A stretch of 64,000 nt of DNA, taken from assembly GCA_902776365.1 (NCBI GenBank), contig CACYPU010000002.1, positions 195,180 through 259,179 on the forward strand, in the 5' to 3' direction. This document shows, piece by piece, positions 7,626 through 47,054 of this stretch (its first letter is position 1; each line of letters starts with the position of its first letter). Position numbers and translations under genes: made by a program. The stretch is from an uncultured Bacteroidota bacterium. GTDB taxonomy: Bacteria; Bacteroidota; Bacteroidia; Bacteroidales; P3. Under the pieces are notes generated by a model. It saw nothing but the letters and a program-made list of their open reading frames with translations. It did no database searches and was not told the DNA's origin.

Positions 7626-10532
7626 TCAATCGGCGGTTCCGACGGCGCCGTCTTCGGGACGGAGCTTGACGGAGACATAGTTGTCGAGGTTGATGTACTT
7701 GTTGGCGAGGCGTTTGATGTCCTCGGGGGTGACTTTCTTCACCATGGCGCTGTAGTCGGTGATGTTCTCGTCACGGCTCTCGCCATAGATGTAGCTGCCT
7801 TGGATCTGGCCGAGCCAGTAGCTGTTGTTCTGGACGCTCTTGTCGTGCTGGACACACATCTGCTCCTGGACTTTGCGGAGGGTCTTTTCGTCGCAGCCTT
7901 TCTTCATGTACTGCTTGAGAATCTTAATGCAGTCTTTCTCAATCTTCTCGGCTTTTTCGGGGTCGCAGCCAATGTAGAACTGCCATGCCACCACACCGTT
8001 GCCGGTGATGGAGGGGCTACAGGTGATGTTGGCGCTGGGGCTGTAGGCGTCGCCGTTCTTCTCGCGGATGATTTCGAGGGTTGTCATGCCCAGAGCGTCG
8101 CCAAACTCCTGGAGGGCGATGCGGGTCTGGAGATCAAGCTCGCTGTTGGGAACTTCCATCTGTCCGGCGATGAGGAGCATGCCCTGACGCTCGATACCCT
8201 TGACGGCTTCGGCGTGGACGATGCCCTTGGCGAACTGCGGGGTGCGGTTGAGGGCGTAGTCTTTGGTGACGGCAGGGATGGTGGGCAGGTGGTTGAGGTA
8301 GTTGGCAATCATGGCGATGGCGCTGTCGTTGACGTTACCGACGAAGAAGAAGGTTTGGTTGTTGGCGAAGGCGAAGCGCTCGCGGTAGATGTCATACATG
8401 CGGTCGAGGTCGAGGCTGCGGACCTGTTCCTCGGTGGGGAACTGGATGATGCGCTTGCTGTCGGGGTAAGCGGCCTTGATGTATTTCTCGATGAAGGCAA
8501 CCTGGGGGTTGTCGCGGATGAATTTGAGCTGCTGGATGGTGTTCTCGATCTCACGTTCGTAGGCTTCGCTATCCTTGCGGGGAGCGGTGTAATAGAGGTT
8601 GATGAGCTGGAGGGTGGTCTCGAGGTCCTTGGGAGAGCAGTTGCCGGAGAAGCCCTGGGTGCTGTTGCTGATGGAAGGACTGATGGAGAGGTTCATGCCT
8701 TTGAGCTTCTTGGAGAGTTGTGTGGCGCTGAAGTCGGCGATACCGCCGGCATCGATGAATTCGGCAGCGTTGTCGGCCTGGTAGAAGTCGGCGTCGCCAT
8801 AGAGGGAGGTGCCGCCGAGGGAGTAGGAAGCGATGAGGATTTCGTCGGCCTTAAGCTCGGTTTTCTTCACCACGAAGCGGACACCGTTGGGGCAGGTGTA
8901 CTCGGTGTAGCCGAGGACGCTGTTGCTGGCGGTCTGGATGGGGGTGATGGCTTCGACGGTCTCGTTGAAGAGGGGTTCGCTGTTGAAGTTGTCGACCCAA
9001 GGTTCGGTCTTGATGTTCTTGTAGTTGCGGAGGATGTTGAGGACTTCCTGCTCGGTGGGGATGTTGACACCGTCTTTCTCGGGGGCGGTGAGGTAGAAGA
9101 CGATGTTCTCGTCGGTGATCCAGTTCTTCACGATGGCGTTGCACTCTTCAAGGGTGATTTCGGGGACAAACTCTTTGGCATAGCGGAATTCCTGACGGAT
9201 GCCGGGGGTGGGATCGTTTTCGAGGTAGTGGTTGGTGTATTCGTCGGCGAGGGAGTTGGTCTGGGTCTTGTTCTCTTCCTTGGCCATTTTCTGGTAGCGG
9301 GAGAGGAGTTCTTCTTTCTGACGATCGAGTTCGGCGGCGAGGAAGCCGTGGTCCTCAATCTGTTTCATGACCTTGAGGAGGAGTTCGGCGGTCTCGTTGA
9401 TGCGGCCGTCCTTGGGGGCTGCGCCGAGTTCGAAGACGTCGATTTCACGGCCGAGGAATCCGCCGTATCCGCCGTTGGCATACATCATGGGGGCAGAGGG
9501 TTTCTGGGTGAGTTCGCTGAAGCGCTCGTTGATCATCATGCCGATGAGGCTGCGGAGGAGCATGGTGCGGTAGGCGCCGATGGTGCCGTTGACACCTTTT
9601 TTGTGTTTCCAGAAGATTTCGAGGGTGGTGCTGGTGGCTTCCTTGTCGGTGGCGATGGCCACGAGGGGCTCTTTGTTGTCGGGGATTTCATAGGAGAGAC
9701 GGGGCAGTTTCTCTTTGCCGAGGAACTGGTGGCTGGAGAAGATGTCTTTCACCTTCTGCTCCATGGCTTTGTCGCCCTTCAGGCCTTGATACTCGAAGTT
9801 GTCGAGGTCGCCAACGATGACGATGGCCTGGAGGTCGGGACGGTACCAGTCGTTGAAGAAGTCGACGATGCTCTGGCGTTTGAAGTTCATGATGACCTCT
9901 TCCTTACCGATGGGGAGACGGTCGGCATAGAGGGAGCCTTTGAGCATGATGGGCCAGGTCTTCTTGCGGAGACGGTCGCCGTGGCCGACGCCACCGCGCC
10001 ATTCCTCATGGATGACGCCGCGCTCGCTCTCAATCTCCTTCTCGTCGAAGAGGATGTTACCGGCCCAGCCGTCGAGGATTTCGATACCCATCTTGACCAT
10101 CTCGGGGTCGTCGGCGGGCATGTTGACATAATAGACGGTCTGGTCGAAGGAGGTGTAGGCGTTGATGTCGCGTCCGAACTCGACACCATGCTGCTGCAAT
10201 TTGTTGATCATCTCGTTGTGGGGGTAGCCCTTGATGCCGTTGAAGGCCATGTGCTCGCAGAAGTGTGCGAGGCCCTGCTGGTCGTCGCGTTCCATGATGG
10301 AACCGGCATTGGAGACGAGACGGAACTGAATCATGTTCTCAGGCTTCTTGTTGTTGCGGATGTAGTAGGTGAATCCGTTGTCAAGCTTGCCATAGCGCAC
10401 CTTTTTGTCCAGGGGGACCTGGGCGTTGAGGTCGCTCTTTTTCTCTTTCGCGCCGGCAGTGCCGAGCTGGGCGAAGGAGGTGCCGCTGAAGACGAAGGTC
10501 AGCAGGAGGGCGAATAAAAAGTTTTTTTTCAT
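7626..10532 (-). CDS. M16-family zinc metalloprotease, exported
   Basis: A 968-residue pitrilysin-family protein with a Sec signal peptide (residues 1-21). The inverted zinc motif HFCEH (90-94) is followed at the expected distance by the third-ligand region ESERGVIHEEWR near 170, so the N-terminal catalytic lobe looks intact. The second, inactive M16 lobe spans roughly residues 560-950, as in the double-domain members. It is probably periplasmic and degrades peptides. It is followed by a strong hairpin terminator; the small XRE gene lies 54 nt upstream on the same strand. Confidence 0.9.
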   Translation of the reverse strand: MKKNFLFALLLTFVFSGTSFAQLGTAGAKEKKSDLNAQVPLDKKVRYGKLDNGFTYYIRNNKKPENMIQFRLVSNAGSIMERDDQQGLAHFCEHMAFNGIKGYPHNEMINKLQQHGVEFGRDINAYTSFDQTVYYVNMPADDPEMVKMGIEILDGWAGNILFDEKEIESERGVIHEEWRGGVGHGDRLRKKTWPIMLKGSLYADRLPIGKEEVIMNFKRQSIVDFFNDWYRPDLQAIVIVGDLDNFEYQGLKGDKAMEQKVKDIFSSHQFLGKEKLPRLSYEIPDNKEPLVAIATDKEATSTTLEIFWKHKKGVNGTIGAYRTMLLRSLIGMMINERFSELTQKPSAPMMYANGGYGGFLGREIDVFELGAAPKDGRINETAELLLKVMKQIEDHGFLAAELDRQKEELLSRYQKMAKEENKTQTNSLADEYTNHYLENDPTPGIRQEFRYAKEFVPEITLEECNAIVKNWITDENIVFYLTAPEKDGVNIPTEQEVLNILRNYKNIKTEPWVDNFNSEPLFNETVEAITPIQTASNSVLGYTEYTCPNGVRFVVKKTELKADEILIASYSLGGTSLYGDADFYQADNAAEFIDAGGIADFSATQLSKKLKGMNLSISPSISNSTQGFSGNCSPKDLETTLQLINLYYTAPRKDSEAYEREIENTIQQLKFIRDNPQVAFIEKYIKAAYPDSKRIIQFPTEEQVRSLDLDRMYDIYRERFAFANNQTFFFVGNVNDSAIAMIANYLNHLPTIPAVTKDYALNRTPQFAKGIVHAEAVKGIERQGMLLIAGQMEVPNSELDLQTRIALQEFGDALGMTTLEIIREKNGDAYSPSANITCSPSITGNGVVAWQFYIGCDPEKAEKIEKDCIKILKQYMKKGCDEKTLRKVQEQMCVQHDKSVQNNSYWLGQIQGSYIYGESRDENITDYSAMVKKVTPEDIKRLANKYINLDNYVSVKLRPEDGAVGTAD

Positions 10533-10569
10533 TGTGTTGATTTTTAAAATGTTTATACTAATTATTTAT

Positions 10570-10597
10570 TTTTCAATTTTCAATTCTCAATTTTTCT
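10570..10597. repeat. 7-bp tandem array at the xre/M16 junction
   Basis: Units TTTTCAA, TTTTCAA, TTCTCAA, TTTTTCT. It spans the end of the XRE gene and the following gap. Confidence 0.75.
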
Positions 10598-10790
10598 TAT
10601 ATTCCAGGAGGTCGGCGGGCTGGCAGTCGAGTACTTCGCAGAGGCGCTCGAGGGTGCTGAAACGCACAGCCTTGGCTTTGCCGGTCTTGAAAATCGACAA
10701 GTTAGCAGGTGTGATGTCCACCCGTTCGGCCAGCTCGTTCAACGATATCTTGCGCTTGGCCATCATCATATCGAGATTCACCAGTATCAT
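10587..10790 (-). CDS. Small XRE-family (YozG-like) transcriptional regulator
   Basis: A 67-residue helix-turn-helix protein (KISLNELAERVDITPANLSIFKT, then FSTLERLCEVLDCQPADLLEY). Such regulators are regularly paired with a DUF2975 membrane protein. Here the start overlaps the DUF2975 stop by 4 nt, which implies translational coupling. It probably autoregulates the pair. The last codons lie in an AT-rich heptad array. Confidence 0.88.
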   Translation of the reverse strand: MILVNLDMMMAKRKISLNELAERVDITPANLSIFKTGKAKAVRFSTLERLCEVLDCQPADLLEYKKN

Positions 10791-11452
10791 ATTGTCAATT
10801 CCTGTTCTTCCTGTATTTCGCGTCCGTAGTAGAATATCTGTGCCATGAAGATGATGGTGAGTCCGAAAACGATGCGTCCGAAGTGAATGGGCATGTTGGT
10901 TGTGGGTTCCCAGTCGGTGCCGGCGAGGAGGTTGGCAGCCAGCGACTGCTCAATCCATGTGGCGGCGTCGATGCTGAGGGTCATGACAATCATCAGGATG
11001 CCGGCCCAGGTGAGCCAGCGGATGTTCTTCTTGGGGAACACCTTGCCGCGACGTACATTAATATAGAATGAGATGAGCGTGATGACGGCAAGGATAATCA
11101 TGATGACAAAAGCGAGGATGCTTACAATTTGAAGGATGAGGCACCAAGTGGCTTTGCCCGAGGTGACGAGATGCTCGCTGTCGGAGGCCAGTGAGACGTC
11201 GAAGGTGGCGGTGTGGACGGTGGCGGAGAGGCTGTCGTCGAGGCCGACCACAGCGGTCAGCCGGTCGTGCTGAGGCTGGAGGTCGGTGATGAGGATGCCG
11301 TAGTCCTTGTTCTGTTCGCTGAGGTTTGCCACCGCGATGGGGTCGGCAGCGGAGACAACATTGAGAATGAATAGCACAATGAAGAGTGCCACCAAGCCGA
11401 TGAGGACTGCGTAAAGTGTTCTTATTCTTGCTATTCTGCTGTTTTTTGCCAT
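10787..11452 (-). CDS. DUF2975-like membrane protein
   Basis: A 221-residue protein with four predicted transmembrane segments (about residues 13-34, 103-128, 145-165 and 190-207) and a ~65-residue external loop between the first two. The pairing with a YozG-type XRE regulator supports the DUF2975 assignment. Function unknown. A TAnnTTTG promoter lies about 25 nt upstream. Confidence 0.75.
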   Translation of the reverse strand: MAKNSRIARIRTLYAVLIGLVALFIVLFILNVVSAADPIAVANLSEQNKDYGILITDLQPQHDRLTAVVGLDDSLSATVHTATFDVSLASDSEHLVTSGKATWCLILQIVSILAFVIMIILAVITLISFYINVRRGKVFPKKNIRWLTWAGILMIVMTLSIDAATWIEQSLAANLLAGTDWEPTTNMPIHFGRIVFGLTIIFMAQIFYYGREIQEEQELTI

Positions 11453-11475
11453 CTTTTCCGTGTTGTTTTCGACGG

Positions 11476-11504
11476 CAAAGATACAACTTTTTTTTAATAT
11501 GCAA
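11476..11504 (-). promoter_or_regulatory. Promoter of DUF2975-xre
   Basis: TATCTTTG at 11476-11483 on the minus strand, with a TTG about 18 nt upstream. Confidence 0.6.
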
Positions 11505-11580
11505 GAAAAATTTTATGAAAAACGAAAAAAAAATATCGTTTTTCGATAAATAATATCTGTAAAACGAGAAAAATAGGGTT

Positions 11581-12378
11581 TTAACACTCGTACTTCTCGA
11601 GGGCCTGGCGGAGTTCGACGAGAGAGATGTCGTGATGGATGGTGCCGCCGAGGGCGTAAGAGATGGCGCCAGTCTCTTCGGAGACGATGACGGAGAGGAC
11701 GTCGAGCTGCTCGGTGACGCCAATGGCGGAGCGGTGACGGAGGCCGAGGTTGGGATCGATGTCGAGGCGCGATGAGACTGGGAGGATGCAGCGGGCGGCG
11801 AGGATGGTGTTGCCGCGGGCGATGACGGCGCCGTCGTGGAGGGGTGAGTTCTTGAAGAAGAGGGCTTCGATGAGAGGGGAGGAGGCGAGAGCATCGATAC
11901 GTTCGCCGGTGTCGATGAGGTCGTCGACCTCGTTGCGGCGCTTGAAGACGATGAGGGCGCCGGTCTTGGTCTGGGACATGTGCATGCAGGCGTTGATGTA
12001 GGCCTCGTAGTTGACTGACTGCTTGTTGGACTGGATGTTGTGTTTCCAGAAACGGATGCGCTTGAAGAAGGATTCGTCGAGTTGGGTTTTTGTGCCGACG
12101 AAGAGGAGGAAGCGGCGGATTTCGGGCTGGAAAATGACGATGAGAGCGATGAGACCGACGCTGACGATGGAGGAGAGGATGGCGCCGAGGAGGCGCATGC
12201 CGAGGAGGTCGGCGGCACGCCAAACGATGAGGAGGATGACGAGGGCCCAGAAGATGAGGATGATGTTGGTGCCTTTGACGAGACGGTAGATGTAGTAGAC
12301 GAGGGCGGCAACGAGGACGATGTCGATGATGTCAATGGGATGGATGGTCGGAAGACCGAGAATGTCGAGGGGTATCAT
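11581..12378 (-). CDS. cdaA: Diadenylate cyclase (c-di-AMP synthase)
   Basis: A 265-residue membrane enzyme that joins two ATP molecules into cyclic di-AMP. Three N-terminal transmembrane helices (about 18-95) are followed by a DAC domain with the catalytic motifs LHDGAVI and GLRHRSAIG. It follows folP with an 11-nt gap on the same strand, an arrangement common in Bacteroidota. A candidate phosphodiesterase for the same nucleotide (pgpH) is also in this window. The start codon lies within a 40-bp octamer element. Confidence 0.94.
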   Translation of the reverse strand: MIPLDILGLPTIHPIDIIDIVLVAALVYYIYRLVKGTNIILIFWALVILLIVWRAADLLGMRLLGAILSSIVSVGLIALIVIFQPEIRRFLLFVGTKTQLDESFFKRIRFWKHNIQSNKQSVNYEAYINACMHMSQTKTGALIVFKRRNEVDDLIDTGERIDALASSPLIEALFFKNSPLHDGAVIARGNTILAARCILPVSSRLDIDPNLGLRHRSAIGVTEQLDVLSVIVSEETGAISYALGGTIHHDISLVELRQALEKYEC

Positions 12379-12413
12379 TGCTTGGTTGTTTAACTGTCTG
12401 ATTGATTGAGTAG
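12374..12413 (-). repeat. 40-bp octamer element at the folP/cdaA junction
   Basis: Plus-strand units ATCATTGC, TTGGTTGT, TTAACTGT, CTGATTGA, TTGAGTAG; a more diverged copy. It contains the cdaA start codon and the folP stop codon. Confidence 0.65.
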
Positions 12414-13232
12414 TTCAATGGTTTGGAGGGCGGGTTTGGGGTCGTGGACGCGGAGGATGCGGGAACCTTTGAGGAGGGCAACGGTGTCGAGTGCGATGGT
12501 GCCGGGGAGTGCTTCGTCGGGGGAGATGCCGAGAGGTTTATAAATCATGCTTTTGCGGCTGAGGGCGGCAAGGAGGGGCTGGGGAAAGAGCGAGGTGAGT
12601 TCGTCGAGACGATGGAGCAACTCGTGGTTTTCTTCGACGGTCTTGGCGAAGCCGAAGCCCGGGTCGAGCCAGACATCTTTGACGCCGAGGCGGTAGAGTG
12701 TATCGAGGTGTGAGGAGAAATATTTTGTGAGGTCGTCGATAACGTCGGTGTAGCCAGTATGTTGCTGCATTTCAGATGGCAAGGCACGGTTGTGCATGAG
12801 GATATAGGGCACCTGGAGGTCGGCGACGGTGGAAAACATCTTGTCGTCGAATTGACCACCGGAGATATCGTTGATGATGTCGGCCCCGGCTTCGATGGCC
12901 CGACGGGCAGGGAGGGAGTAGCAGGTGTCTACGGAGAGGATGGCGTCGGGGAGGGTGCTGCGAAGGAGGGTGACGGCGTTGGCGAGCTTTTCGGCTTCGA
13001 TGTCGGGTGGCAGAAGTTGGGCTCCGGGGCGAGAGGAAGCGGCACCGATGTCAATGATGTCGGCTCCCTCGTCGAGGAGCCAATGGGCATGAGAGAGTAT
13101 GGCCTCGGGAGTGCTGTGGCGGCTTCCGTCGTAGAAGGAGTCGGGGGTGATGTTGAGTATGCCCATGACGGCGGGTCGGGAGAAGGTGACCAGCCGTCCA
13201 CGGACGGTGACAGTGAAGGGATTAAAATTCAT
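12390..13232 (-). CDS. folP: Dihydropteroate synthase
   Basis: A 280-residue TIM-barrel enzyme of folate synthesis that condenses the pterin pyrophosphate with p-aminobenzoate. Signatures are MGILNITPDSFYDGSRH, EGADIIDIGAASSRPGA, VDTCYSLPARRAIEAGADIIND, and the C-terminal RVHDPKPALQTI. Length is normal. The last codons (LLNQSDS) fall in a repeat element. It heads the minus-strand folP-cdaA unit and diverges from the DUF1599 gene with 96 nt between. Confidence 0.95.
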   Translation of the reverse strand: MNFNPFTVTVRGRLVTFSRPAVMGILNITPDSFYDGSRHSTPEAILSHAHWLLDEGADIIDIGAASSRPGAQLLPPDIEAEKLANAVTLLRSTLPDAILSVDTCYSLPARRAIEAGADIINDISGGQFDDKMFSTVADLQVPYILMHNRALPSEMQQHTGYTDVIDDLTKYFSSHLDTLYRLGVKDVWLDPGFGFAKTVEENHELLHRLDELTSLFPQPLLAALSRKSMIYKPLGISPDEALPGTIALDTVALLKGSRILRVHDPKPALQTIELLNQSDS

Positions 13233-13328
13233 AAAACCATTAACGCATTCAAGCGTTCGTTATTGTGTGGAATTATTTTTTTTATATTTTATACAATAAA
13301 GAATACCAGTTTGCGTTTTACACTAATT

Positions 13329-13895
13329 ATGACTGAAAATATAGAAAAAAGAGATACTAGGAGCGAAATGGAGCGTGAGGTGGCGGAGTGTCGGGCGTTG
13401 TTTGAGAAGAAGACGCGCGACTATGGCACCTCGTGGCGTATCCTGCGCCTGCCGTCGCTGACGGACCAGATTTTTATCAAGGCCAACCGTATCCGTAGCA
13501 TTCAGGAGAGTGGGGAGAACCGTGTGGGTGACGATGTGCGTGACGAGTTTGTGGCAATGGTGAACTATGCCGTGATGGCACTCGTCCAGTGTAAAGTGGA
13601 AAGTGACAAGTGGAAAGAGGAGCTGCCGTTGGAGAAGGCATTGGCGCTCTATGATGAGCAGACGAAACAGGTGCTTGATCTTATGATGGACAAGAACCAT
13701 GACTACGGCGAGGCGTGGCGTCAGATGCGTATCAGCTCGATGGTGGATTTGATTCTGATGAAATTGCTGCGCATCAAGCAGATAGAGGATAATGACGGAC
13801 AGACGTTAGTGAGTGAGGGCGTGGAAGGCGGATATATGGACATCATCAACTATTCGCTGTTCTGCCTGGTGCGGATTACGGAAAATGAAAATTGA
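13329..13895 (+). CDS. DUF1599 protein (nucleotide-modification-associated family)
   Basis: A 188-residue protein made of two similar halves: KKTRDYGTSWRILRLPSLTDQIFIKANRI (first half; positions ~22-50) and a second set DYGEAWRQMRISS with ILMKLLRIKQIE. This is the DUF1599 duplicated unit, predicted to bind nucleotides; its biochemical role is unknown. The ATG at 13329 follows an AT-rich leader. A heptad array in frame encodes CKVESDKWKEE between the two halves. It is the first gene of the long plus-strand cluster. Confidence 0.85.
   Translation: MTENIEKRDTRSEMEREVAECRALFEKKTRDYGTSWRILRLPSLTDQIFIKANRIRSIQESGENRVGDDVRDEFVAMVNYAVMALVQCKVESDKWKEELPLEKALALYDEQTKQVLDLMMDKNHDYGEAWRQMRISSMVDLILMKLLRIKQIEDNDGQTLVSEGVEGGYMDIINYSLFCLVRITENEN
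13591..13618 (+). repeat. 7-bp tandem array inside the DUF1599 gene
   Basis: Units GTAAAGT, GGAAAGT, GACAAGT, GGAAAGA; in frame, in the linker between the two protein halves. Confidence 0.75.
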
Positions 13896-13909
13896 AAAAT
13901 GAAAAATAT
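13882..13909 (+). repeat. 7-bp tandem array at the DUF1599/DoxX junction
   Basis: Units AAAATGA, AAATTGA, AAAATGA, AAAATAT. The array supplies both the stop of one gene and the start of the next. Confidence 0.7.
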
Positions 13910-15131
13910 GAAGTTTGAAATTAGAGATACGAAACTGAGCTACACGCTTAACGTGGTTTCGCGTTGGTTGGTGGGGTTGGTATTCATTTTTTCGGCGTTC
14001 GTGAAGGGCGTCGACCCCATGGGGACGATGTTCAAGGTCGAGGAGTATATGTCGAGTTGGACGCTCTTCGGCATGACGTTCGAGTGGGCGCATCCTTTGG
14101 CAGGAGTACTCTCGGTGGCGCTGGTGTGTGCCGAGTTCCTTGTGGGTGTGATGCTTATCTTCAACGCATTCCGGGTGCTCTCGTCGTGGCTGCTGGTACT
14201 GATGATGACCTTCTTCACTTGTACCACTTTCTTCGACGCTGTTACCGGCCTGGTCGACGACTGTGGCTGCTTCGGCGACGCCATAAAACTGACCAACTGG
14301 CAGACGTTCTGGAAGAATGTGGTGCTCGACGTGTTCACGGTGGTGATTTTCCTCACACGGAAGGTGCGCTACCGTCGTCGTCTGGAACGTGACGTCGTTG
14401 TGGTGTTGGTGGCACTGGCTGCCATTCTGGTGTTCTGCATCTATAATATCAAGCACGAGCCTGTGATAGACTTCCGTCCGTGGAAGGTCGGCAAAAGCAT
14501 GGTGATGCGCCAGGAGCCGATGAACTATCTCAAATATAAGAATTTGGAGACTGGTGAGGAGGTGGAGCTTCGCTATAAAAACGGCGAATGGAAGAATGAA
14601 TGGGACCAGTATACCGAAGATGAGGCTCATTGGGAATTTGTTGAATCAGGGACCACCCCCGAGTTTGTGGTCTTGGCCGACGGATTCTCGATGCTGGCTC
14701 CCGACGAACAGGGGAACCTCAGCACCGAACAGACGCTGAACATCCTGCCTGACAGCAATGGCGTGCTTTTTGTCACCATTTACGATTTGGAGAAGGTGGA
14801 CGAAGAGGGAGTGCAGGAGGTGAAAGACGCTGTGACACTGGTGGATGACCTGAATAAGGCCGGACATGAGATGCGAATCGTTTTGTTGACTTCGATGAGT
14901 CGCAACATACATGACAATCCGCTGGAGAAAGTCCAGGCTTGGCTGTCGGACAATGAAATTGAGGGTATTCGTGTGAATGTGTTGGATGTGGAGGGCGACA
15001 ACAACGTTTATTTCGCCGACGCCACCGCTATCAAGACCATCATGCGCGGCAATCCAGGTTTTATGTACATGGAAAACGGTGTGGTGGTGGATAAGGGTCG
15101 CAAGGCAGAGAAATTAGAAATTAAGAAATAA
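13899..15131 (+). CDS. BT_3928-like DoxX/MauE membrane protein with C-terminal thioredoxin-like region
   Basis: A 410-residue protein. Residues ~15-160 form a four-helix DoxX/MauE-type membrane domain with VDDCGCFGDAIKLTNW, a CxC redox motif shared with vitamin K/quinone-linked disulfide systems. A further helix near 165-185 is followed by a periplasmic C-terminal domain with a thioredoxin-like strand order (GVLFVTIYDLEKV, GNPGFMYMENGVVVDKG) but no CxxC. It probably moves reducing equivalents across the membrane; the partner is unknown. It is closely spaced with the DUF1599 and DUF4293 genes. A second DoxX-thioredoxin protein lies at 56580. Confidence 0.8.
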   Translation: MKNMKFEIRDTKLSYTLNVVSRWLVGLVFIFSAFVKGVDPMGTMFKVEEYMSSWTLFGMTFEWAHPLAGVLSVALVCAEFLVGVMLIFNAFRVLSSWLLVLMMTFFTCTTFFDAVTGLVDDCGCFGDAIKLTNWQTFWKNVVLDVFTVVIFLTRKVRYRRRLERDVVVVLVALAAILVFCIYNIKHEPVIDFRPWKVGKSMVMRQEPMNYLKYKNLETGEEVELRYKNGEWKNEWDQYTEDEAHWEFVESGTTPEFVVLADGFSMLAPDEQGNLSTEQTLNILPDSNGVLFVTIYDLEKVDEEGVQEVKDAVTLVDDLNKAGHEMRIVLLTSMSRNIHDNPLEKVQAWLSDNEIEGIRVNVLDVEGDNNVYFADATAIKTIMRGNPGFMYMENGVVVDKGRKAEKLEIKK

Positions 15132-40860: not shown

Positions 40861-40891
40861 TTTGGCAGGTGAGAAAAAAAGTGTATTTTTG
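40861..40891 (+). promoter_or_regulatory. Promoter of the CMP-sugar operon
   Basis: TTTG, 19-nt spacer, TATTTTTG. The only clear promoter for the seven co-directional genes that end at 47054. Confidence 0.85.
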
Positions 40892-40900
40892 CATTTCAAT

Positions 40901-40929
40901 AAGTCAGAAAGTCAAAAGGGTAAAAAGTC
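40901..40929 (+). repeat. 7-bp tandem array in the operon leader
   Basis: Units AAGTCAG, AAAGTCA, AAAGGGT, AAAAAGT, ending at the start codon; matches the leader at 28318. Confidence 0.65.
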
Positions 40930-41685
40930 ATGAGGAATATCGCAGTGATACTGGCAGGAGGTACCGGCAGCCGCATGGGGTCGTCGGTGCCTAAACAGTT
41001 CCTAGAACTTGGCGGTCGCACGGTGATAGAGTATTCTATTGAGACTTTTTGCAGCCATCCGGCCATCGACGAGGTGGCGGTGGTGGTGCATCCCGACTGG
41101 CGGGGACGCATGGAGGAGATAGTGGCTAGTGCTCAGTGGTCAGTGGCTAGTGGGAAGTTGAAGAAGATTATTGACGGTGGCAGCGAACGATACATGTCGA
41201 GCCTCAACGCCATCATGGCTTATATCGACGAACCCGACGACACTAACTTGTTACTGCATGACGCGGCACGGCCTTTCGTTTCGGTCGAGATTATCGACCG
41301 AGTGGTTGCGGCTCTGCAATGCCATGAAGCTGTGGGAGTGGCGGTGCCGAGTACCGATACCGTGTGGGAGGTGCATCCGGATATGGGTGGAGAGTTGATG
41401 GTTAAAAGTGAAAAGTGTGAGATTCCGCGATTTGTGGCACGGATACCGGAGCGCAAGTTGATGTGGCGCGCCCAGACCCCCCAGGCTTTCCGCCTGCCGC
41501 TGATTCGCGACGCTTACCAGAGGGCTCTACAGGACCCGATGTTCCAGGCTACCGACGACTGCGGTGTGGTGCGCAAATACATGCCCGGCACGAAGATAGC
41601 TGTGGTGGAAGGAGTTGAACGCAACATGAAGGTGACGACCCCACAAGACATCGTCGCACTGGAACAAATTCTGATTAATAGATAG
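40930..41685 (+). CDS. IspD/TarI-family cytidylyltransferase
   Basis: A 251-residue nucleotidyltransferase: AVILAGGTGSRMGSSVPKQFLELGG, LLLHDAARPFVSVEIIDRVV, AVPSTDTVWE, APQTFR-equivalent RAQTPQAFRLPLIRDAY, DDCGVVRKY and GVERNMKVTTPQD. It may be the MEP-pathway IspD (makes CDP-methylerythritol) or a CDP-alditol-forming enzyme like TarI. Position as first gene of a sugar operon favours the latter; as the only such gene in view, the former cannot be excluded. Two heptad arrays are translated in frame (VASAQWSVASGK and VKSEKCEI). Confidence 0.85.
   Translation: MRNIAVILAGGTGSRMGSSVPKQFLELGGRTVIEYSIETFCSHPAIDEVAVVVHPDWRGRMEEIVASAQWSVASGKLKKIIDGGSERYMSSLNAIMAYIDEPDDTNLLLHDAARPFVSVEIIDRVVAALQCHEAVGVAVPSTDTVWEVHPDMGGELMVKSEKCEIPRFVARIPERKLMWRAQTPQAFRLPLIRDAYQRALQDPMFQATDDCGVVRKYMPGTKIAVVEGVERNMKVTTPQDIVALEQILINR
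41121..41155 (+). repeat. 7-bp tandem array inside the IspD-like gene
   Basis: Five units: AGTGGCT, AGTGCTC, AGTGGTC, AGTGGCT, AGTGGGA. In frame. Confidence 0.85.
41401..41421 (+). repeat. Short 7-bp array inside the IspD-like gene
   Basis: Units GTTAAAA, GTGAAAA, GTGTGAG; in frame. Confidence 0.55.
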
Positions 41686-41702
41686 TGAAAAAAAGAAATA
41701 AT

Positions 41703-42362
41703 ATGAAGACAGTAGCTATGGTGCCCATCAAGTTGAACAGCGAGAGGGTGAAAGAAAAAAATCTACGGCCTTTTTCGGACGGCAAACCACTGGTGCAGTT
41801 TATTCTGGAGTCTTTGGTGAAGAGTAGCCGTGTGGATGAGGTGTATGTTTATTGCAGTTCGGAGCGGATAAAGGATTATCTTATCGACGGGGTGAAGTTT
41901 CTGAAACGTCCCGAATATTTGGACGGTAATGGATGCAACTGCAATGATATCATTCGAGAGTTTATGAAGGAGGTGGATGCCGACTATTATGTGGTTTCGC
42001 ATGCAACGGCTCCTTTCACAAAGACAGAGAGCATCGACCGTTGCATTGCCAGTGTGGAGGACGGCGAGGAGTATGATTCGGCGTTCACGGTGGAGAAAAT
42101 CCAGACATTCCTCTGGCAGGACGGATCCCCTATTAACTTCGACCCCGACCATTTCCCCCGCACACAGGACTTGAAGCCGATTTACATGGAGACGTCGGGT
42201 GCTTTTGTGTTTCCGAGGTGGGTGTTTGAAAAGTACAACCGCAGGGTGGGGGTGAAGCCCTGTCTTGTGGAGGTGGAGCCGATAGAAAGTAGCGACATTG
42301 ACACAGAGTATGACATGATGGTGGCTCAGGCTTTGTATAAGTATATGCAGGAAAATCAATAA
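41703..42362 (+). CDS. CMP-sugar (acylneuraminate/ulosonate) synthetase, NeuA-like
   Basis: A 219-residue cytidylyltransferase: MVPIKLNSERVKEKNLRPF at the N-terminus (the NeuA signature is ARxxSKRxPxKN-like, here diverged), HATAPFTKTESIDRCIASV, YDSAFTVEKIQTFLW, FPRTQDLKPIYMETSGAF and ESSDIDTEYDMMVAQ. Enzymes of this family attach CMP to 2-keto sugar acids (sialic, legionaminic, Kdo-type). It lacks a C-terminal phosphatase or esterase domain. ATG at 41703 is preferred over the GTG at 41685. Confidence 0.9.
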   Translation: MKTVAMVPIKLNSERVKEKNLRPFSDGKPLVQFILESLVKSSRVDEVYVYCSSERIKDYLIDGVKFLKRPEYLDGNGCNCNDIIREFMKEVDADYYVVSHATAPFTKTESIDRCIASVEDGEEYDSAFTVEKIQTFLWQDGSPINFDPDHFPRTQDLKPIYMETSGAFVFPRWVFEKYNRRVGVKPCLVEVEPIESSDIDTEYDMMVAQALYKYMQENQ

Positions 42363-42380
42363 GTCAAAAGGTTCAAAAAT

Positions 42381-43421
42381 ATGGGAGCAAAAGTACATAT
42401 TGTAGACTGTACCATCCGTGATGGGGGCTATCTTTTCGACAAGAATTCCGACCCAGAGTTTGTGAGAGGTATTCTGCAGGGGTTGGTGAATGCGGGTATT
42501 GATTATACTGAGACAGGTTTCCTCCAAAGCAAGGTGAACGGTGAAACTATTGTATATCATGACTCAAAGGGTGTGATAAAGTATCTCCCAACCGATGCAG
42601 GACGGACAACCTATCTGGGTTTCTGTGACAATAGCCGATACACACCGGAGGAACTCGATGAGTGTGACGGCAAATCCTTCAAGTGGTTGCGTATCTCGTT
42701 TGCAAAACATGAGATAGAAGACTCGTTGAGGTTCTGTCAAGAGGCCATGAGAAAAGGATATCGTGTCCAGTTCAACCCGATGGATAGCATCAGCTACACA
42801 ATGCAAGAAAGGGCAGAGTTGATAGAGAAGGTGAATAAGGTTAAGCCGGCAGCGTTCTCTATAGTGGATACATTCGGGGCTATGTATATGTCAGACCTTG
42901 TGACTATCTTCAAACAGTTTGACACGATGCTCGACAAAGAGGTGATGATAGGACTTCATTCCCATGACAATCTTGGACTTTCCTGTGCGTTGGCTGAACG
43001 CATGGTTGAGCTTGCCGAAGAAACGGGACGCGAGATATGCATCGACGGTTCTTTGTTCGGGATGGGCCGTGGGGCGGGCAATGCAAAAACGGAATTGCTT
43101 GCCGACTATCTCAATAAGCATTGTGGCACGCAATACAATGTGCAGGTGCTGCTTGAAACAATAGACAAGTACATTGTTCCCATTCTTGACAGAATTCATT
43201 GGGGATACGACTTGCCGATGTTTGTCTGTGGAACAAAGCATTCCCATGTCGACAATGTGAATCATCTGGCTCAAACAACGGATAGTTCGATTACCGATAT
43301 TTTCAATGTGGTTGAGACCTTGACTCCCCAACAGAGAACAAGATATGGTGCAGGATATTCCAAAACGGACTTTTCACAATTGGACCAAAAATACTTGGAG
43401 TATAAAAATAAAAACAAATAG
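42381..43421 (+). CDS. DRE-TIM (HMG-CoA lyase-like) aldolase
   Basis: A 346-residue TIM-barrel enzyme. The DRE motif is VDCTIRDGGY (residues 9-18), and the metal-binding HxH is IGLHSHDNLGL near 195; GMGRGAGNAKTE follows, as in 4-hydroxy-2-oxovalerate aldolases. The C-terminal communication domain is short. It should form or cleave a C-C bond next to a 2-keto acid or acyl unit. It lies where a NeuB or KdsA synthase would be expected. Codon use and base composition are more AT-rich than in the genes before 41.7 kb and after 45.1 kb, suggesting separate origin of this segment. Confidence 0.85.
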   Translation: MGAKVHIVDCTIRDGGYLFDKNSDPEFVRGILQGLVNAGIDYTETGFLQSKVNGETIVYHDSKGVIKYLPTDAGRTTYLGFCDNSRYTPEELDECDGKSFKWLRISFAKHEIEDSLRFCQEAMRKGYRVQFNPMDSISYTMQERAELIEKVNKVKPAAFSIVDTFGAMYMSDLVTIFKQFDTMLDKEVMIGLHSHDNLGLSCALAERMVELAEETGREICIDGSLFGMGRGAGNAKTELLADYLNKHCGTQYNVQVLLETIDKYIVPILDRIHWGYDLPMFVCGTKHSHVDNVNHLAQTTDSSITDIFNVVETLTPQQRTRYGAGYSKTDFSQLDQKYLEYKNKNK

Positions 43422-43423
43422 AT

Positions 43424-43951
43424 ATGAATTGTGCTGATTATTTAGTTGATTATCTGATTAAACAAGGTGTAACGGATGTCTTTGGTTTTGCAGGTGGCTA
43501 TATTGTGCCTTTTCAAGACGCTCTATATAAGCGGCCTGAAATAAAGGTGCACGTGTGCTATAATGAACAAGGATGTTCTTTTGCTGCGAATGGTTATGCC
43601 CGCACAAGTGGAAAACTTGGGGTGTATTTCACAACCTCCGGCCCTGGCGCCGTCAATGCGTTTGGAGGGTTGGCAGATGCTTGGTTCGACGGAGTCCCCG
43701 TTATGGGAATTTGTGGCAATGTGCCTACCAATGAGAAGAAAGGTTTTTCTGGAATACGCCAGAACGGTTTTCAGGAAATGGATATTGTCTCAATGACAAG
43801 ACATATTACAAAACTTTCTGTCACGCCATTGAGCGCTATTGATTTCCCGGATATAGTATCACGCGCCTATAACATGGCCATGCTTGGCAGGAAAGGGGGT
43901 GTAGTTATTGATTTTCCGTATAACATTCAAAAGACGGAGGTGGAGTTATGA
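43424..43951 (+). CDS. TPP-dependent enzyme, N-terminal (pyrimidine-binding) subunit
   Basis: A 175-residue protein equal to the first domain of acetolactate-synthase-type enzymes: GVTDVFGFAGGYIVPFQDAL, then CYNEQGCSFAANGYARTSGK, whose Glu (NEQ) is the TPP-activating residue, and TTSGPGAVNAFGGLADAW. The middle and PP domains are on the next gene, which overlaps by ATGA. Normal single-chain relatives have ~550 residues. Most likely it is a heteromeric enzyme; a frameshift of one gene is the alternative. AT-rich codons as in the aldolase gene. Confidence 0.85.
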   Translation: MNCADYLVDYLIKQGVTDVFGFAGGYIVPFQDALYKRPEIKVHVCYNEQGCSFAANGYARTSGKLGVYFTTSGPGAVNAFGGLADAWFDGVPVMGICGNVPTNEKKGFSGIRQNGFQEMDIVSMTRHITKLSVTPLSAIDFPDIVSRAYNMAMLGRKGGVVIDFPYNIQKTEVEL

Positions 43952-45060
43952 ACTACAAGGATTTTAAGAAGCCCGTTCTTTTAGTGGGCAGTGGCGTTCG
44001 TGCAGCGGGAGCAGCAGGTTTGGTTGTCGAGTTTGCCCTGAAAACCAATATCCCGGTGTTGACAACGATGAATGCCGTGGATGTTGCACAAGGTGACCTC
44101 CGAGTCGGAATGATGGGAACATATGGCAACCGCTGGTCCAATATGATTCTGGAGAATTGTGACCTTGTTATTTCTGTGGGTGCTCGTTTGGGCCTTCGTC
44201 AGATTGGTCACAAAAAGGAATGGTTCGCTCCTAAAGCAAAGTTGGTGAGAGCCGATGTCGACCAGGCGGAATTAAGCCGTAACGTGAAGGATGACGAGGA
44301 AAAACATTTGATAGACGCAAGGGATTTCATAGTTTCCTTGCTTGCGACAGATTTCCCTGATTGCACCGAATGGAAGCGCCGCTGCCTTGCAGTAAAGGAC
44401 ATGCTCGCAAAGTATGACAATACTGAGGGTAATGATGCCGTGGAGGCTATCGCAGATTTACTGCCAGAGAATCCTGTCTGTGCCATTGATATTGGTCAAC
44501 ACCAGTGTTGGTGCGCCCAGTCCCTTGCTTTGAAAGGACATGATGGCCGTATCTTGATAGGAGGTGGCTATGGCTCCATGGGTTGCGGCTTGCCCTATTC
44601 CATCGGGGCGTCCATCTCAAGGAATAATGGTCTTGTCTATTGTATCACTGGCGATGGCGGTCTTCAAATGAACATCCAGGAACTGGAGACAGTTGTGCGA
44701 GAGAAGTTGCCCATCAAGATTATTGTAATAAACAACCATGTGTTGGGTAAAATCAGCGAAATTCAGCATGGTTCTTACGACGACCGTTATGCTCAGACGA
44801 CAGCTGAGAGCGGATATTCTGTCCCCGACTTCAAGAAAATCGCCGAGGCCTATGGAATAAAGGCTGCAACGATTCCTTCCTATCGGGAACTCAAGAACTA
44901 TAAGGAATGGTTTACTGACGGTGACCCCTGCCTTATCAACATGTTCTTGGACCCCGACACACTGCTAATCCCCAAAATTAAATGGGAAACGGGACTTATA
45001 ATGCCACTGCTTGAAGGGGGGTTGAACAAAAAGGTTCTTTCTTTACTCAATTTTGAATGA
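43948..45060 (+). CDS. TPP-dependent enzyme, central and C-terminal (PP-binding) subunit
   Basis: A 370-residue protein with the central Rossmann-like domain (PVLLVGSGVRAAGAAGLV, NRWSNMILENCDLVISVGARL) and the C-terminal TPP-binding domain (GGGYGSMGCGLPYSIGAS, then GDGG, about 26 residues, INNHVLGKI). The Mg-diphosphate motif is therefore intact. It completes the previous gene. A carboligase or decarboxylase acting on a 2-keto acid is predicted. Neither gene has an ilvN-type regulatory partner, so a branched-chain amino acid role is unlikely in this context. Confidence 0.87.
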   Translation: MNYKDFKKPVLLVGSGVRAAGAAGLVVEFALKTNIPVLTTMNAVDVAQGDLRVGMMGTYGNRWSNMILENCDLVISVGARLGLRQIGHKKEWFAPKAKLVRADVDQAELSRNVKDDEEKHLIDARDFIVSLLATDFPDCTEWKRRCLAVKDMLAKYDNTEGNDAVEAIADLLPENPVCAIDIGQHQCWCAQSLALKGHDGRILIGGGYGSMGCGLPYSIGASISRNNGLVYCITGDGGLQMNIQELETVVREKLPIKIIVINNHVLGKISEIQHGSYDDRYAQTTAESGYSVPDFKKIAEAYGIKAATIPSYRELKNYKEWFTDGDPCLINMFLDPDTLLIPKIKWETGLIMPLLEGGLNKKVLSLLNFE

Positions 45061-45976
45061 CATGATAAAGTTCCTCGTAATGGATGTCGACGGCACCTTG
45101 ACCGATGGCAAAATCTATATGGGTGCGCAGGGTGAGCTCCTCAAGGCTTTCGATATAAAGGATGGCTATGGTATCAAAGAGATTCTACCCCTGCATAATA
45201 TCACCCCTGTGATTATCACGGCCCGCAGTAGCGAGATTCTGCAAAACCGCTGCCGTGAACTGGGCATTACTGAACTCTACCAGAACACCAGAGACAAGTT
45301 CGCTTGTCTGACAGCTCTTCTTGAACGGCACCACTCTTCTCTCGCCGAGGTGGCTTATATCGGAGACGACTGCCTCGACCTTCAATGCATGGAGCCTGTC
45401 TTGCGAGCGGGCGGACAGACGGGCTGTCCTGCCAATGCCGTCCCCGCAGTCATAGCCGCTTGCAGTTACGTTGCTCCCCATAAAGCAGGAGAGGGAGCTG
45501 TGCGCGACTTTGTCGAGTACCTTGTCAATCACAACAGCGAAGATCATCATCCTTCCCTGAAGCAACGCCTCGACAAGGCGGTGGCTTATATCGACAGACT
45601 TGACTTCGATTCTCTCTCTATGGGTACTCACGAAGTGTCGCCCGACTTCTACTTTAACGTGATGGAGTATATTCCTTCTCTCGAACAGGAGGTGCTCTAT
45701 GAGTCCCATCGCAAGTATATAGACATACAGCGTTTGTTCGATGGAGAGGAACGAATGATGGTTGCCGAGACCTCGATGTTGACTCCCGCCACGCTTTATG
45801 ATGCCGATAAGGACTGTATACTCTACGAGAACTCCTCCAGTCTCTCTGGTCTCCTGTTCCGCCCTGGTTCCTCCCTGGTTCTTTTCCCCAATAATGCCCA
45901 TAAGGCAGTGCGTAATGGCGAGAAGGAGACGAAAGTGAAGAAAATTGTCGGAAAACTAATGATTAATCATGGCTAG
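45053..45976 (+). CDS. KdsC-type phosphatase fused to a YhcH/NanQ-type anomerase domain
   Basis: A 307-residue fusion. Residues 1-165 are a HAD phosphatase of the KdsC subclass (VMDVDGTLTDGKIYMGAQGE, FDIKDGYGIKE, ITARSS, YIGDDCLDLQCM), which removes phosphate from 8- or 9-carbon ulosonate phosphates. Residues ~180-305 are a YhcH/YjgK/YiaL cupin domain (YFNVMEYIPSLEQEVLYESHRKYIDIQ, LYDADKDCILY, LVLFPNNAHKAVRNG), known in E. coli NanQ as an N-acetylneuraminate anomerase. The two would act in succession just before CMP activation. It overlaps its neighbours by 8 nt on each side; Met4 is an alternative start. Confidence 0.9.
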   Translation: MNDMIKFLVMDVDGTLTDGKIYMGAQGELLKAFDIKDGYGIKEILPLHNITPVIITARSSEILQNRCRELGITELYQNTRDKFACLTALLERHHSSLAEVAYIGDDCLDLQCMEPVLRAGGQTGCPANAVPAVIAACSYVAPHKAGEGAVRDFVEYLVNHNSEDHHPSLKQRLDKAVAYIDRLDFDSLSMGTHEVSPDFYFNVMEYIPSLEQEVLYESHRKYIDIQRLFDGEERMMVAETSMLTPATLYDADKDCILYENSSSLSGLLFRPGSSLVLFPNNAHKAVRNGEKETKVKKIVGKLMINHG

Positions 45977-47054
45977 AAGGGCTTTTTCCCCCGAGGGATT
46001 GGACGCTGTTCCTTATGGCGACATCACCCATGTATGCATGACACCCTCCATTCATGCCCTCCTACAATACATGCTTCTTTTCGACTATGATACGGTGGCC
46101 CGGCATACTGCCTATTTTACTGGCTATGCTGTCTCACCCGATATTGCCTCGCGCCTTCCGGGAGTCTGGTTCTCCGTCAAACAGACAGGCACCCGCCAGT
46201 CTTTGTCGCGTATTTTTGGGAAAATCGCCATCCGTGCTACACGCCGTTTGCGTTATCCTTTCCTCCGCAACGCTCGCATCTACGCATTTGATGTGGGTTT
46301 TGTGCCCCCGTTGATAGGCCGCCGACCCTACGCCCTGCTCTCTGACGGCCCTTTGGGAATCTCGCAGAACATGCAGGAATCCAGTGCTGAATATATCCGT
46401 CAGCAACGCCGTAGCCAGTCTCTTCAAGGACATATAGAAGAACTTCTTTTCGGGCCCGTGGCGGTCAATGGATGGGGCAACAACCCCCAGTGCCGAGAGT
46501 TCTACATGACAGAAGATAACCAATGTGTCGTCTTCCGGGACAAGCCTGTCCATATCGATTCTCTCCGCAGCCTCTGGGAACAGGCCGAACCTGCCACGCA
46601 CGCTTTTGTCAAACATGTCTTCGATGTAGATGAAACCGACATTGCACTCCTCAACAGTCGCCCCTATATGTTCTGCACTCAGCCGATGGTAAAGGATGGC
46701 ATCCTTTCCGTACAGGAATACCTCGCCATTCTCAGACCTATATTCGAAAAATATGGTACCGACCAGCTGTTGCTCAAACTCCATCCTCGTGATGACTTCG
46801 ACTACCGTCGTTATTTCCCGGAGGTGGCTGTTTATGATAAAAAGGTGAACATGCAACTATTGGTTCTTCTGGGAGCCAATGTACAACGTGTAGGAACCAT
46901 CTGCTCCTCGTCGGTCAACTCCTTCCCGCAGGAGGTGCAGGTCGATTGGTATGGCACCGACTTTCACCCTAAGCTCAAAGCGTGGTTTGGTACTGCGGTG
47001 CCACCGGCACGCCCCTATAACCAATGTGCTATTTCCCCAGCAGTCCTTTTGTGA
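45969..47054 (+). CDS. Sialyltransferase-like glycosyltransferase (GT52/POST type)
   Basis: A 361-residue protein with no signal peptide. The last third carries the motifs of bacterial CMP-sugar-dependent transferases: LLLKLHPRDDFDYR (the HP motif), VGTICSSSVNSFPQ (the Ser motif) and DWYGTDFHP. The N-terminal half is Arg-rich and less typical. With the upstream CMP-sugar synthetase it should transfer the CMP-activated acid to a lipid or glycan acceptor at the inner face of the membrane. Its 3' end overlaps the convergent GT2 gene by 26 nt. Start overlaps the fusion gene by 8 nt. Confidence 0.75.
   Translation: MARRAFSPEGLDAVPYGDITHVCMTPSIHALLQYMLLFDYDTVARHTAYFTGYAVSPDIASRLPGVWFSVKQTGTRQSLSRIFGKIAIRATRRLRYPFLRNARIYAFDVGFVPPLIGRRPYALLSDGPLGISQNMQESSAEYIRQQRRSQSLQGHIEELLFGPVAVNGWGNNPQCREFYMTEDNQCVVFRDKPVHIDSLRSLWEQAEPATHAFVKHVFDVDETDIALLNSRPYMFCTQPMVKDGILSVQEYLAILRPIFEKYGTDQLLLKLHPRDDFDYRRYFPEVAVYDKKVNMQLLVLLGANVQRVGTICSSSVNSFPQEVQVDWYGTDFHPKLKAWFGTAVPPARPYNQCAISPAVLL

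Follow-up and report, generated by a model that had tools for sequence, protein, structure and literature searches.

How can an operon supply a cytidine monophosphate (CMP)-activated acidic sugar when every step after the synthase is encoded and the synthase itself, an enzyme dependent on phosphoenolpyruvate (PEP), is missing? This question is raised by a locus in a stretch of 64,000 nucleotides (the window) from an uncultured Bacteroidota bacterium (order Bacteroidales; NCBI GenBank assembly GCA_902776365.1, contig CACYPU010000002.1, positions 195,180 to 259,179), the genome of which comprises 2.23 Mb in 18 contigs and is 89.65% complete. Seven tightly packed genes (g1 to g7) occupy positions 40930 to 47054 of the + strand. 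On balance, we think that g2 to g7 are a cassette, spread by horizontal transfer, that makes a CMP-activated sugar acid of the 2-keto-3-deoxy (ulosonic) type without a PEP-dependent synthase; to our knowledge, the described CMP-sialic-type sugars and 3-deoxy-manno-octulosonic acid (Kdo) are all built by such synthases. The product would be a CMP-activated ulosonic acid, probably C-branched. This reading rests on gene content, conservation of the unit, enzyme families, the absence of NeuB, and the predicted fold of the aldolase, from which we infer all reactions, the order of the first two steps, and the substrates. Gene positions refer to the window, and L, G, and C numbers designate loci, genomes, and contigs, respectively. 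The features of the locus are as follows:

40861..40891, + strand: promoter TTTG-N19-TAnnTTTG of the Bacteroidales type, upstream of ispD and the cassette
40930..41685, + strand: g1, IspD (Pfam IspD, 4e-52; TIGR00453, 188 bits against a cutoff of 181.3)
41685..42362, + strand: g2, NeuA/PseF-like CMP-sugar synthetase (Pfam CTP_transf_3, 1e-18)
42381..43421, + strand: g3, RDGGY-type, pyruvate-aldolase-like DRE-TIM enzyme of the DmpG/3dxi group (Pfam HMGL-like, 1e-22)
43424..43951, + strand: g4, N-terminal subunit of a thiamine pyrophosphate (TPP) enzyme, here TPP-N (Pfam TPP_enzyme_N, 3e-36)
43948..45060, + strand: g5, M and C subunit of a TPP enzyme, here TPP-M/C (TPP_enzyme_M, 5e-27; TPP_enzyme_C, 2e-37)
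45053..45976, + strand: g6, KdsC-type HAD phosphatase fused to a YhcH/NanQ-type anomerase (TIGR01670, 136 bits against a cutoff of 107; DUF386/YhcH, 7e-28)
45969..47054, + strand: g7, GT52-type glycosyltransferase with the HP motif H272-P273 (Pfam Glyco_transf_52, PF07922, 8e-13, over the gathering score)

The preliminary description of this locus, made from the sequence alone, had reported one promoter and seven packed genes, a layout confirmed by the open reading frame (ORF) positions, the Pfam and NCBIfam matches, and the promoter site. Overlaps of 1 to 8 bases join four of the six adjacent gene pairs, or three if g2 starts at the ATG at 41703, which we consider likelier than the GTG at 41685. 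The promoter motif, which we take to be the Bacteroidetes consensus, occurs six times in the window; the average over 100 shuffles is 0.54. The synthetase g2 falls under the cutoff of every NCBIfam model that it matched (the best being PseF, at 62 bits against 205.7). Within g6, the KdsC domain comes first and DUF386/YhcH lies behind it. For g7, the sugar donor of which is expected to be a CMP-activated acid, a sequence search of the PDB gave zero matches up to an E value of 1.

To delimit the unit, an aldolase alignment was scanned against 84,980 species, each represented by one genome, and the 80 loci discussed here are the best 80 of at least 542. Loci with an aldolase identity of at least 50% (27 of the 80) are termed close, and those below 50% (53 of the 80) distant. 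The close loci lie on 27 distinct contigs, most of them from metagenome-assembled genomes (MAGs), the bins of which may hold stray contigs. Carriers that are not MAGs include Butyrivibrio sp. NC2007, Butyrivibrio sp. INlla18, and Lachnoclostridium sp. Marseille-P6806 (L061, L062, and L068). NeuA, aldolase, TPP-N, and TPP-M/C recur together on 26 of the 27 contigs, so chance grouping is not an issue; KdsC is present in 22, YhcH in 7, and GT52 in 4. The real unit is NeuA, aldolase, TPP-N, TPP-M/C, and KdsC, with YhcH and GT52 as optional members. This neighborhood survey, which the preliminary description had suggested, bears out its grouping of the aldolase and TPP genes with NeuA and KdsC, which together make one conserved unit. 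Within the 26 block loci, a few genes are incomplete: L075 has NeuA and TPP-N as fragments, L061 has part of TPP-M/C, and in L076 the contig ends within NeuA. Rearrangements occur in L060, which has an extra gene between aldolase and TPP-N, and in L062, where KdsC has moved before TPP-N.

By the names in the genome records, the block occurs in five phyla, with members in Bacteroidota, Lachnospiraceae and other Bacillota, Synergistaceae, Treponema, and one Thermoplasmata archaeon; a Melainabacteria bin (Gastranaerophilales, L071) has the aldolase alone and was left out of this count. On starred branches of the aldolase tree, the Bacillota label has to change four times or more, a pattern that fits horizontal transfer without proving it. 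L127 was dropped from the TPP tree, and both L103 and L127 from the aldolase tree; the same rows were dropped from the respective invariance counts. The contig binned as the archaeon carries a full cassette (L066:2813-6600), the TPP pair of which groups with that of a Eubacteriaceae bin (91/83), so this cassette reflects recent transfer or misbinning. Plasmid and phage searches returned relatives of the aldolase, TPP-N, and TPP-M/C that were all below 60% identity, and none of NeuA. Among the neighbor proteins (108 scanned of 133), three matched GT52 and three the polysialyltransferase family with E values up to 1e-4, two sets that may overlap.

The missing synthase was sought both in the source genome and across the scan. 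No NeuB was found in the source genome, within its 89.65% completeness, by a search that was positive in 9 of 14 control genomes. KdsA, which Kdo synthesis itself requires, has a single match over the cutoff, at C2:305856 and outside the operon, and a further 34-bit match below it. KdsC exceeds its cutoff twice, in the g6 fusion and in a stand-alone copy on C4, so the operon KdsC is the second copy of the genome. At this completeness, two statements of the preliminary description stand, namely, that every step after the synthase is present with neither NeuB nor KdsA in the operon and that the genome should contain KdsA and no second synthase. Of the genes that mark PEP-dependent CMP-nonulosonate and Kdo pathways, the cluster has a NeuA/KdsB-superfamily synthetase and KdsC, with NeuB and KdsA neither in nor beside it. 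In the scan, six NeuB queries, which recover one another's loci, found NeuB in 0 of the 80 loci. A NeuB encoded elsewhere and co-occurring strictly with this NeuA, the observation that the preliminary description had named as decisive against it, was rejected, as 14 of the 27 genomes with close loci have no NeuB match (bins may be incomplete).

The cassette thus resembles the NeuB/PseI/LegI and KdsA pathways, which lead to N-acetylneuraminic acid, Kdo, 2-keto-3-deoxynononic acid, legionaminic acid, and pseudaminic acid, in its NeuA-type synthetase, its KdsC-type phosphatase, YhcH, and the GT52 or polysialyltransferase-type genes near some loci. It differs from them in that a DRE-TIM aldolase-like enzyme and a split TPP carboligase replace the PEP-dependent synthase. 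A mixed arrangement was seen at L038:4710-14376, where a NeuA-KdsC frame stands with NeuB, a long distant aldolase, and a second KdsB-like gene, so that two kinds of acidic-sugar genes adjoin.

The aldolase is the most likely stand-in for the PEP-dependent synthase. The model of g3 has a predicted local distance difference test score of 92.4, and the 12 best rows of its comparison with the PDB are 4-hydroxy-2-oxovalerate aldolases or 3dxi (E values of 5e-19 to 1e-16), followed by homocitrate and isopropylmalate-type (Claisen) synthases at 1e-13 and weaker. The DRE-TIM fold and the HxH and RD motifs of DmpG-type enzymes are present, and residues D9, R13, D14, H193, H195, and N197, presumably of the metal-site type after DmpG, are invariant in 28 rows. 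In fold and in these residues, g3 is like DmpG, BphI, and BVU_2661 (3dxi); it differs from them in its identity of 18 to 26% in the fold search, in its surface-sugar context, and in the lack of a partner acylating aldehyde dehydrogenase among the seven operon genes. In addition, g3 has a Tyr where DmpG has a His after the RDG motif.

The genomic company of the aldolase points to CMP activation. A CMP-sugar synthetase adjoins the aldolase in 76 of the 80 scan loci (50 of the 53 distant and 26 of the 27 close loci), compared with 1 of 25 in a control aldolase subgroup of the same order (L010-L034, flanks of about 1.5 kb); with g2 as the sole query, the counts are 24 of 53 distant loci versus 1 of 25. 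A HAD phosphatase is also adjacent in 37 of the 53 distant loci, none of which has TPP genes directly downstream of the aldolase; in L103 and L127, TPP genes lie several kilobases upstream of it. A Leisingera plasmid carries an aldolase, a 3-deoxy-manno-octulosonate cytidylyltransferase, and a HAD hydrolase in a row, and in a MAG of Candidatus Helicobacter avicola, NeuA and aldolase are fused in one frame of 591 amino acids (aa) with no inner stop (L125:10523-12298). That the aldolase tracks CMP synthetases both with and without TPP genes, together with this fusion, is our strongest argument that it supplies the acid for NeuA. The core of the system would seem to consist of the aldolase, the phosphatase, and the CMP synthetase, with the TPP enzyme as an apparent addition. 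The surroundings of the fusion (L125:6906-14096) hold three aldolase frames and many NeuA-like frames. Elsewhere, at L158:10437-14986 and L046:9819-13107, an aldolase of 511 to 515 aa and a CMP synthetase are followed by a PfkB-type kinase that reads like a 2-keto-3-deoxygluconate kinase (Pfam-tested in L158 only).

The TPP pair, by its sequence features, looks like a split YerE-type carboligase that would make the acceptor for the aldolase. Compared with the PDB over its whole length, the pair matches 5ahk best, which we take to be PpYerE (252.7 bits), followed by acetohydroxyacid synthase (AHAS) I at 244.7 bits, and it has in common with 5ahk, and not with AHAS I, an insertion of 6 residues and an indel of 1 residue. 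The two top PDB matches of g5 are 5ahk and 8rph, the latter at 154 bits. The invariant Glu of the N domain (E48) and the GDG motif (G235-D236-G237) are in place. IlvC was found in 0 copies in the source genome, within the completeness given above (control, 14 of 14), and g4 matched itself in that genome and no second protein; a role in branched-chain amino acid synthesis is therefore unlikely, and an AHAS for amino acids was rejected as the identity of the pair. One report identifies 8rph as JanthE, a YerE-like enzyme (PMC12188165), and another describes YerE-like enzymes as makers of branched sugars (PMC12247030). From this group (YerE, ErwE, JanthE, and PpYerE) the cassette enzyme differs in being encoded by two genes, N and then M+C, and in being linked to genes for a CMP-acid, not for a CDP-keto-sugar.

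A sister arrangement, cassette II, bears on what the TPP enzyme makes. TPP-N was matched in 10 of 120 same-genus genomes, in seven of them at 78% or more (the source genome counted); four have the cassette of the window, here cassette I (the source genome, G433, G456, and G454), and three (G427, G455, and G446) have cassette II, consisting of a short-chain dehydrogenase/reductase (SDR), TPP-N, TPP-M/C, and an IspD-like gene of about 200 aa. The TPP pairs of the three cassette II genomes and of L103 form a fully supported group against 27 cassette I rows. The pairing of SDR with an IspD-like gene suggests that a carbonyl phosphate is reduced and then activated with cytidine diphosphate (CDP), and cassette II is likely a CDP-alditol route with an extra carboligation step. 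This pairing with the sister TPP clade would suit a TPP product with both a carbonyl and a phosphate, and the product in cassette I may, by analogy, be a carbonyl phosphate that the aldolase extends. The cassette II loci (L159:10281-14378, L192:9702-12641, and L193:8628-11596, with a TagF-like gene also in L159) resemble Bcs1/TarIJ-type CDP-alditol pathways in pairing TPP genes with SDR and IspD-like genes; the cassette of the window has NeuA and aldolase instead.

Combinations beyond these two cassettes were also seen. At L103:3152-6561, an aminotransferase, an IspD-like gene, TPP-N, and TPP-M/C follow one another, and a KdsB-like gene and a long aldolase lie downstream. A Desulfobaculum bizertense plasmid (L195:3843-8011) carries consecutively rfbH, a split transketolase, and an aldolase related to g3 (27.9% identity). 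A CMP synthetase is not among the genes annotated in the 15-kb stretch, the gene table of which is incomplete. L195 is possibly a branched CDP-dideoxy sugar route, and it shows that TPP/aldolase-type pairs exist outside CMP pathways.

Taken together, the enzyme families would allow the following sequence of six steps. First, the carboligase (g4 and g5) would decarboxylate a 2-keto acid (probably pyruvate) and link it to a carbonyl compound of central metabolism that bears a phosphate, so that a phosphorylated acyloin results. Next, g3, as a metal-dependent pyruvate aldolase, would add pyruvate to the carbonyl of the acyloin to give an ulosonic acid phosphate, which would be C4-branched if the acceptor is a ketone. 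The KdsC domain of g6 would remove the phosphate, YhcH, where present, would rotate the anomeric center, g2 would make the CMP donor, and g7 would transfer the acid to a surface glycan. We place the TPP step before the aldolase because most distant loci have the aldolase and CMP synthetase without TPP genes and because cassette II has the TPP genes without an aldolase. A wider proposal, which we regard as tentative and possible rather than probable, is that of a PEP-free class of CMP-ulosonic acids in which the pyruvate aldolase acts as the synthase; it is grouped with a CMP synthetase and a HAD phosphatase in Bacillota, in Bacteroidota, on an alphaproteobacterial plasmid, and elsewhere. In the branch to which the window belongs, the split carboligase would build the acceptor first, leading to a C-branched acid, for example, 3-deoxy-4-C-methyl-hept-2-ulosonic acid (C8H14O7) from two pyruvates and glyceraldehyde 3-phosphate.

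Several points weigh against this scheme and lend weight to its rivals. Acceptors of DmpG-type aldolases are mostly aldehydes, not ketones. The TPP pair is nearly as close to AHAS, 8 bits apart, and its N subunit alone (g4) is closest to plant AHAS; the TPP clades of cassettes I and II are well separated, and their products may differ. A KdsC match within 5 kb is missing in 4 of the 26 block loci (L061, L064, L067, and L069). The synthetase and phosphatase queries of the adjacency count were drawn in part from the same 80 loci, which favors these over the control, and the control does not include L043, L045, and L046, which hold long aldolases from the order accompanied by a synthetase. NeuB occurs in 13 of the 27 genomes with close loci, or in 12 of the 26 with the block; among 16 larger stretches surveyed around distant aldolases of the order, one, L038, also has it, 3 kb before an aldolase of about 33% identity. 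Finally, ErwE prefers 4-hydroxy-2-oxo acids as donors, and hydroxylated 2-oxo acids are the donors of choice for the caryophyllose enzyme (PMC12247030). Such donors are products of pyruvate aldolases and would, by analogy, put the aldolase before the TPP enzyme. In that reversed order, the aldolase would make a 4-hydroxy-2-oxo acid, the TPP enzyme would decarboxylate it and transfer the long acyl branch to a second carbonyl, and NeuA would activate a branched acid other than a normal ulosonate. The Desulfobaculum plasmid, with its rfbH, split transketolase, and aldolase, agrees with this order, which we nevertheless hold to be unlikely: the product of the distant aldolases, adjoined as they are by CMP synthetases and often by a phosphatase, could go straight to CMP activation, and TPP pairs are also found without an aldolase. 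We rate lower again a variant, compatible with the later steps of the scheme, in which the TPP pair acts as a decarboxylase that yields an aldehyde phosphate (e.g., glycolaldehyde phosphate from 3-phosphohydroxypyruvate) and the aldolase adds pyruvate to give an unbranched short ulosonic acid. The aldehyde would then be the usual acceptor of the fold, and a same-genus locus (L160) offers, from ORF reading, a decarboxylase route to an activated small unit; against it, the TPP pair is nearer to YerE and AHAS carboligases than to decarboxylases in the PDB listings.

The remaining rivals leave the cassette without a synthase of its own or extend it by one gene. That this NeuA is supplied by a NeuB or KdsA encoded at another place in the genome, with the aldolase and TPP genes serving another pathway, is very improbable in our judgment. 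The NeuB-positive genomes, the KdsA of the incompletely assembled source genome, and L038 speak for it, yet about half of the close-locus genomes lack a NeuB match, none of the 80 loci has one, NeuA travels with the aldolase and both TPP genes, and nature has fused NeuA to the aldolase. We find it just as hard to credit, as an addition to any of these schemes, that g1 activates an intermediate as a CDP derivative, a role that the preliminary description had suggested for this first cytidylyltransferase. The gene order of the window is repeated in L077, and in L103 the IspD-like gene stands directly before the TPP pair. However, g1 is the sole IspD over the cutoff in its genome (the next match has 22.8 bits), where Dxr is present as well, so that what is expected of an IspD of the methylerythritol phosphate (MEP) pathway is found: a TIGR00453 match over the cutoff, a single copy, and Dxr. 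A relative of g1 occurs in 39 of the 41 genomes searched (the source genome counted), and IspD lies within 6.6 kb of the aldolase in only 2 of the 27 close loci. Among the four cassette-bearing same-genus genomes, the fetched stretch lacks ispD in G433 and G456, and in G433 the cassette is on C14 and ispD on C10. The three same-genus relatives with a TPP pair and SDR carry an extra, separate IspD-like gene there. The suggestion was therefore rejected: with the only IspD in a genome that has Dxr, and same-genus cassettes without an adjoining ispD, g1 is judged a neighbor. It is most likely a resident housekeeping gene of the MEP pathway at the edge of a variable slot and outside the cassette, so that the window shows a resident ispD with the cassette placed behind it.

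Each part of the cassette is of a known kind; no description of the gene combination or of the replaced synthase was found in a search of open-access literature, which excludes most subscription journals. If the proposal is true, it would define a new class of acidic surface sugars, common, according to the genome records, to distant gut and rumen microbes. It could account for NeuA genes without NeuB and would make NeuA-type genes misleading as markers of sialic acid. The cassette presents two carbon-carbon bond-forming enzymes with defined partners, and its product is directly testable.

The slot next to ispD was surveyed in 20 stretches from same-genus relatives. In 11 of them, ispD has a MORN-type gene at a distance of no more than about 3.5 kb, and 13 of the 20 show at least one flank marker (MORN/MiaB-like to one side of the slot, GT2/YfhO/7TM-HD to the other). 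The full cassette was found in 0 of these 20 stretches, the slot contents of which differ from one to another (several gene names come from reading ORFs). In L156, the slot holds an IspD-SDR fusion and a TagF-like gene; in L158, a KdsB-like gene, another aldolase, a PfkB kinase, and GT52; and in L174 and L173, KdsA or KpsF with NeuA and GT52. In L160 (positions 10279-14504), ORF reading gives a PEP mutase with a cytidylyltransferase domain, a TPP decarboxylase, an iron-type alcohol dehydrogenase, and LicD, a route of phosphonate decoration. Phosphonate logic was rejected for the window, the operon of which has no PEP mutase.

Most distant aldolases are about 530 aa long and have an extra C-terminal domain. 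Their C-terminal 195 residues (e.g., L120:11015-11590) carry AGxDG and APGxS motifs and are weakly MptE-like, with weak matches of this kind in 3 of 37 members. Among genomes of the phylum, the search for the domain was positive in 3 of 395. No separate fold for the domain appeared among 50 rows of the PDB search, and one query against viral contigs returned no relative. The model alignments drew on close aldolases (25 of 28) and on long ones (37 of 45), and the domain alignment on 23 of 37. In a Foldseek comparison with viral structures, giant-virus proteins named KdsA (486 and 504 aa) took ranks 3 and 4, with root mean square deviations of 19 to 21.

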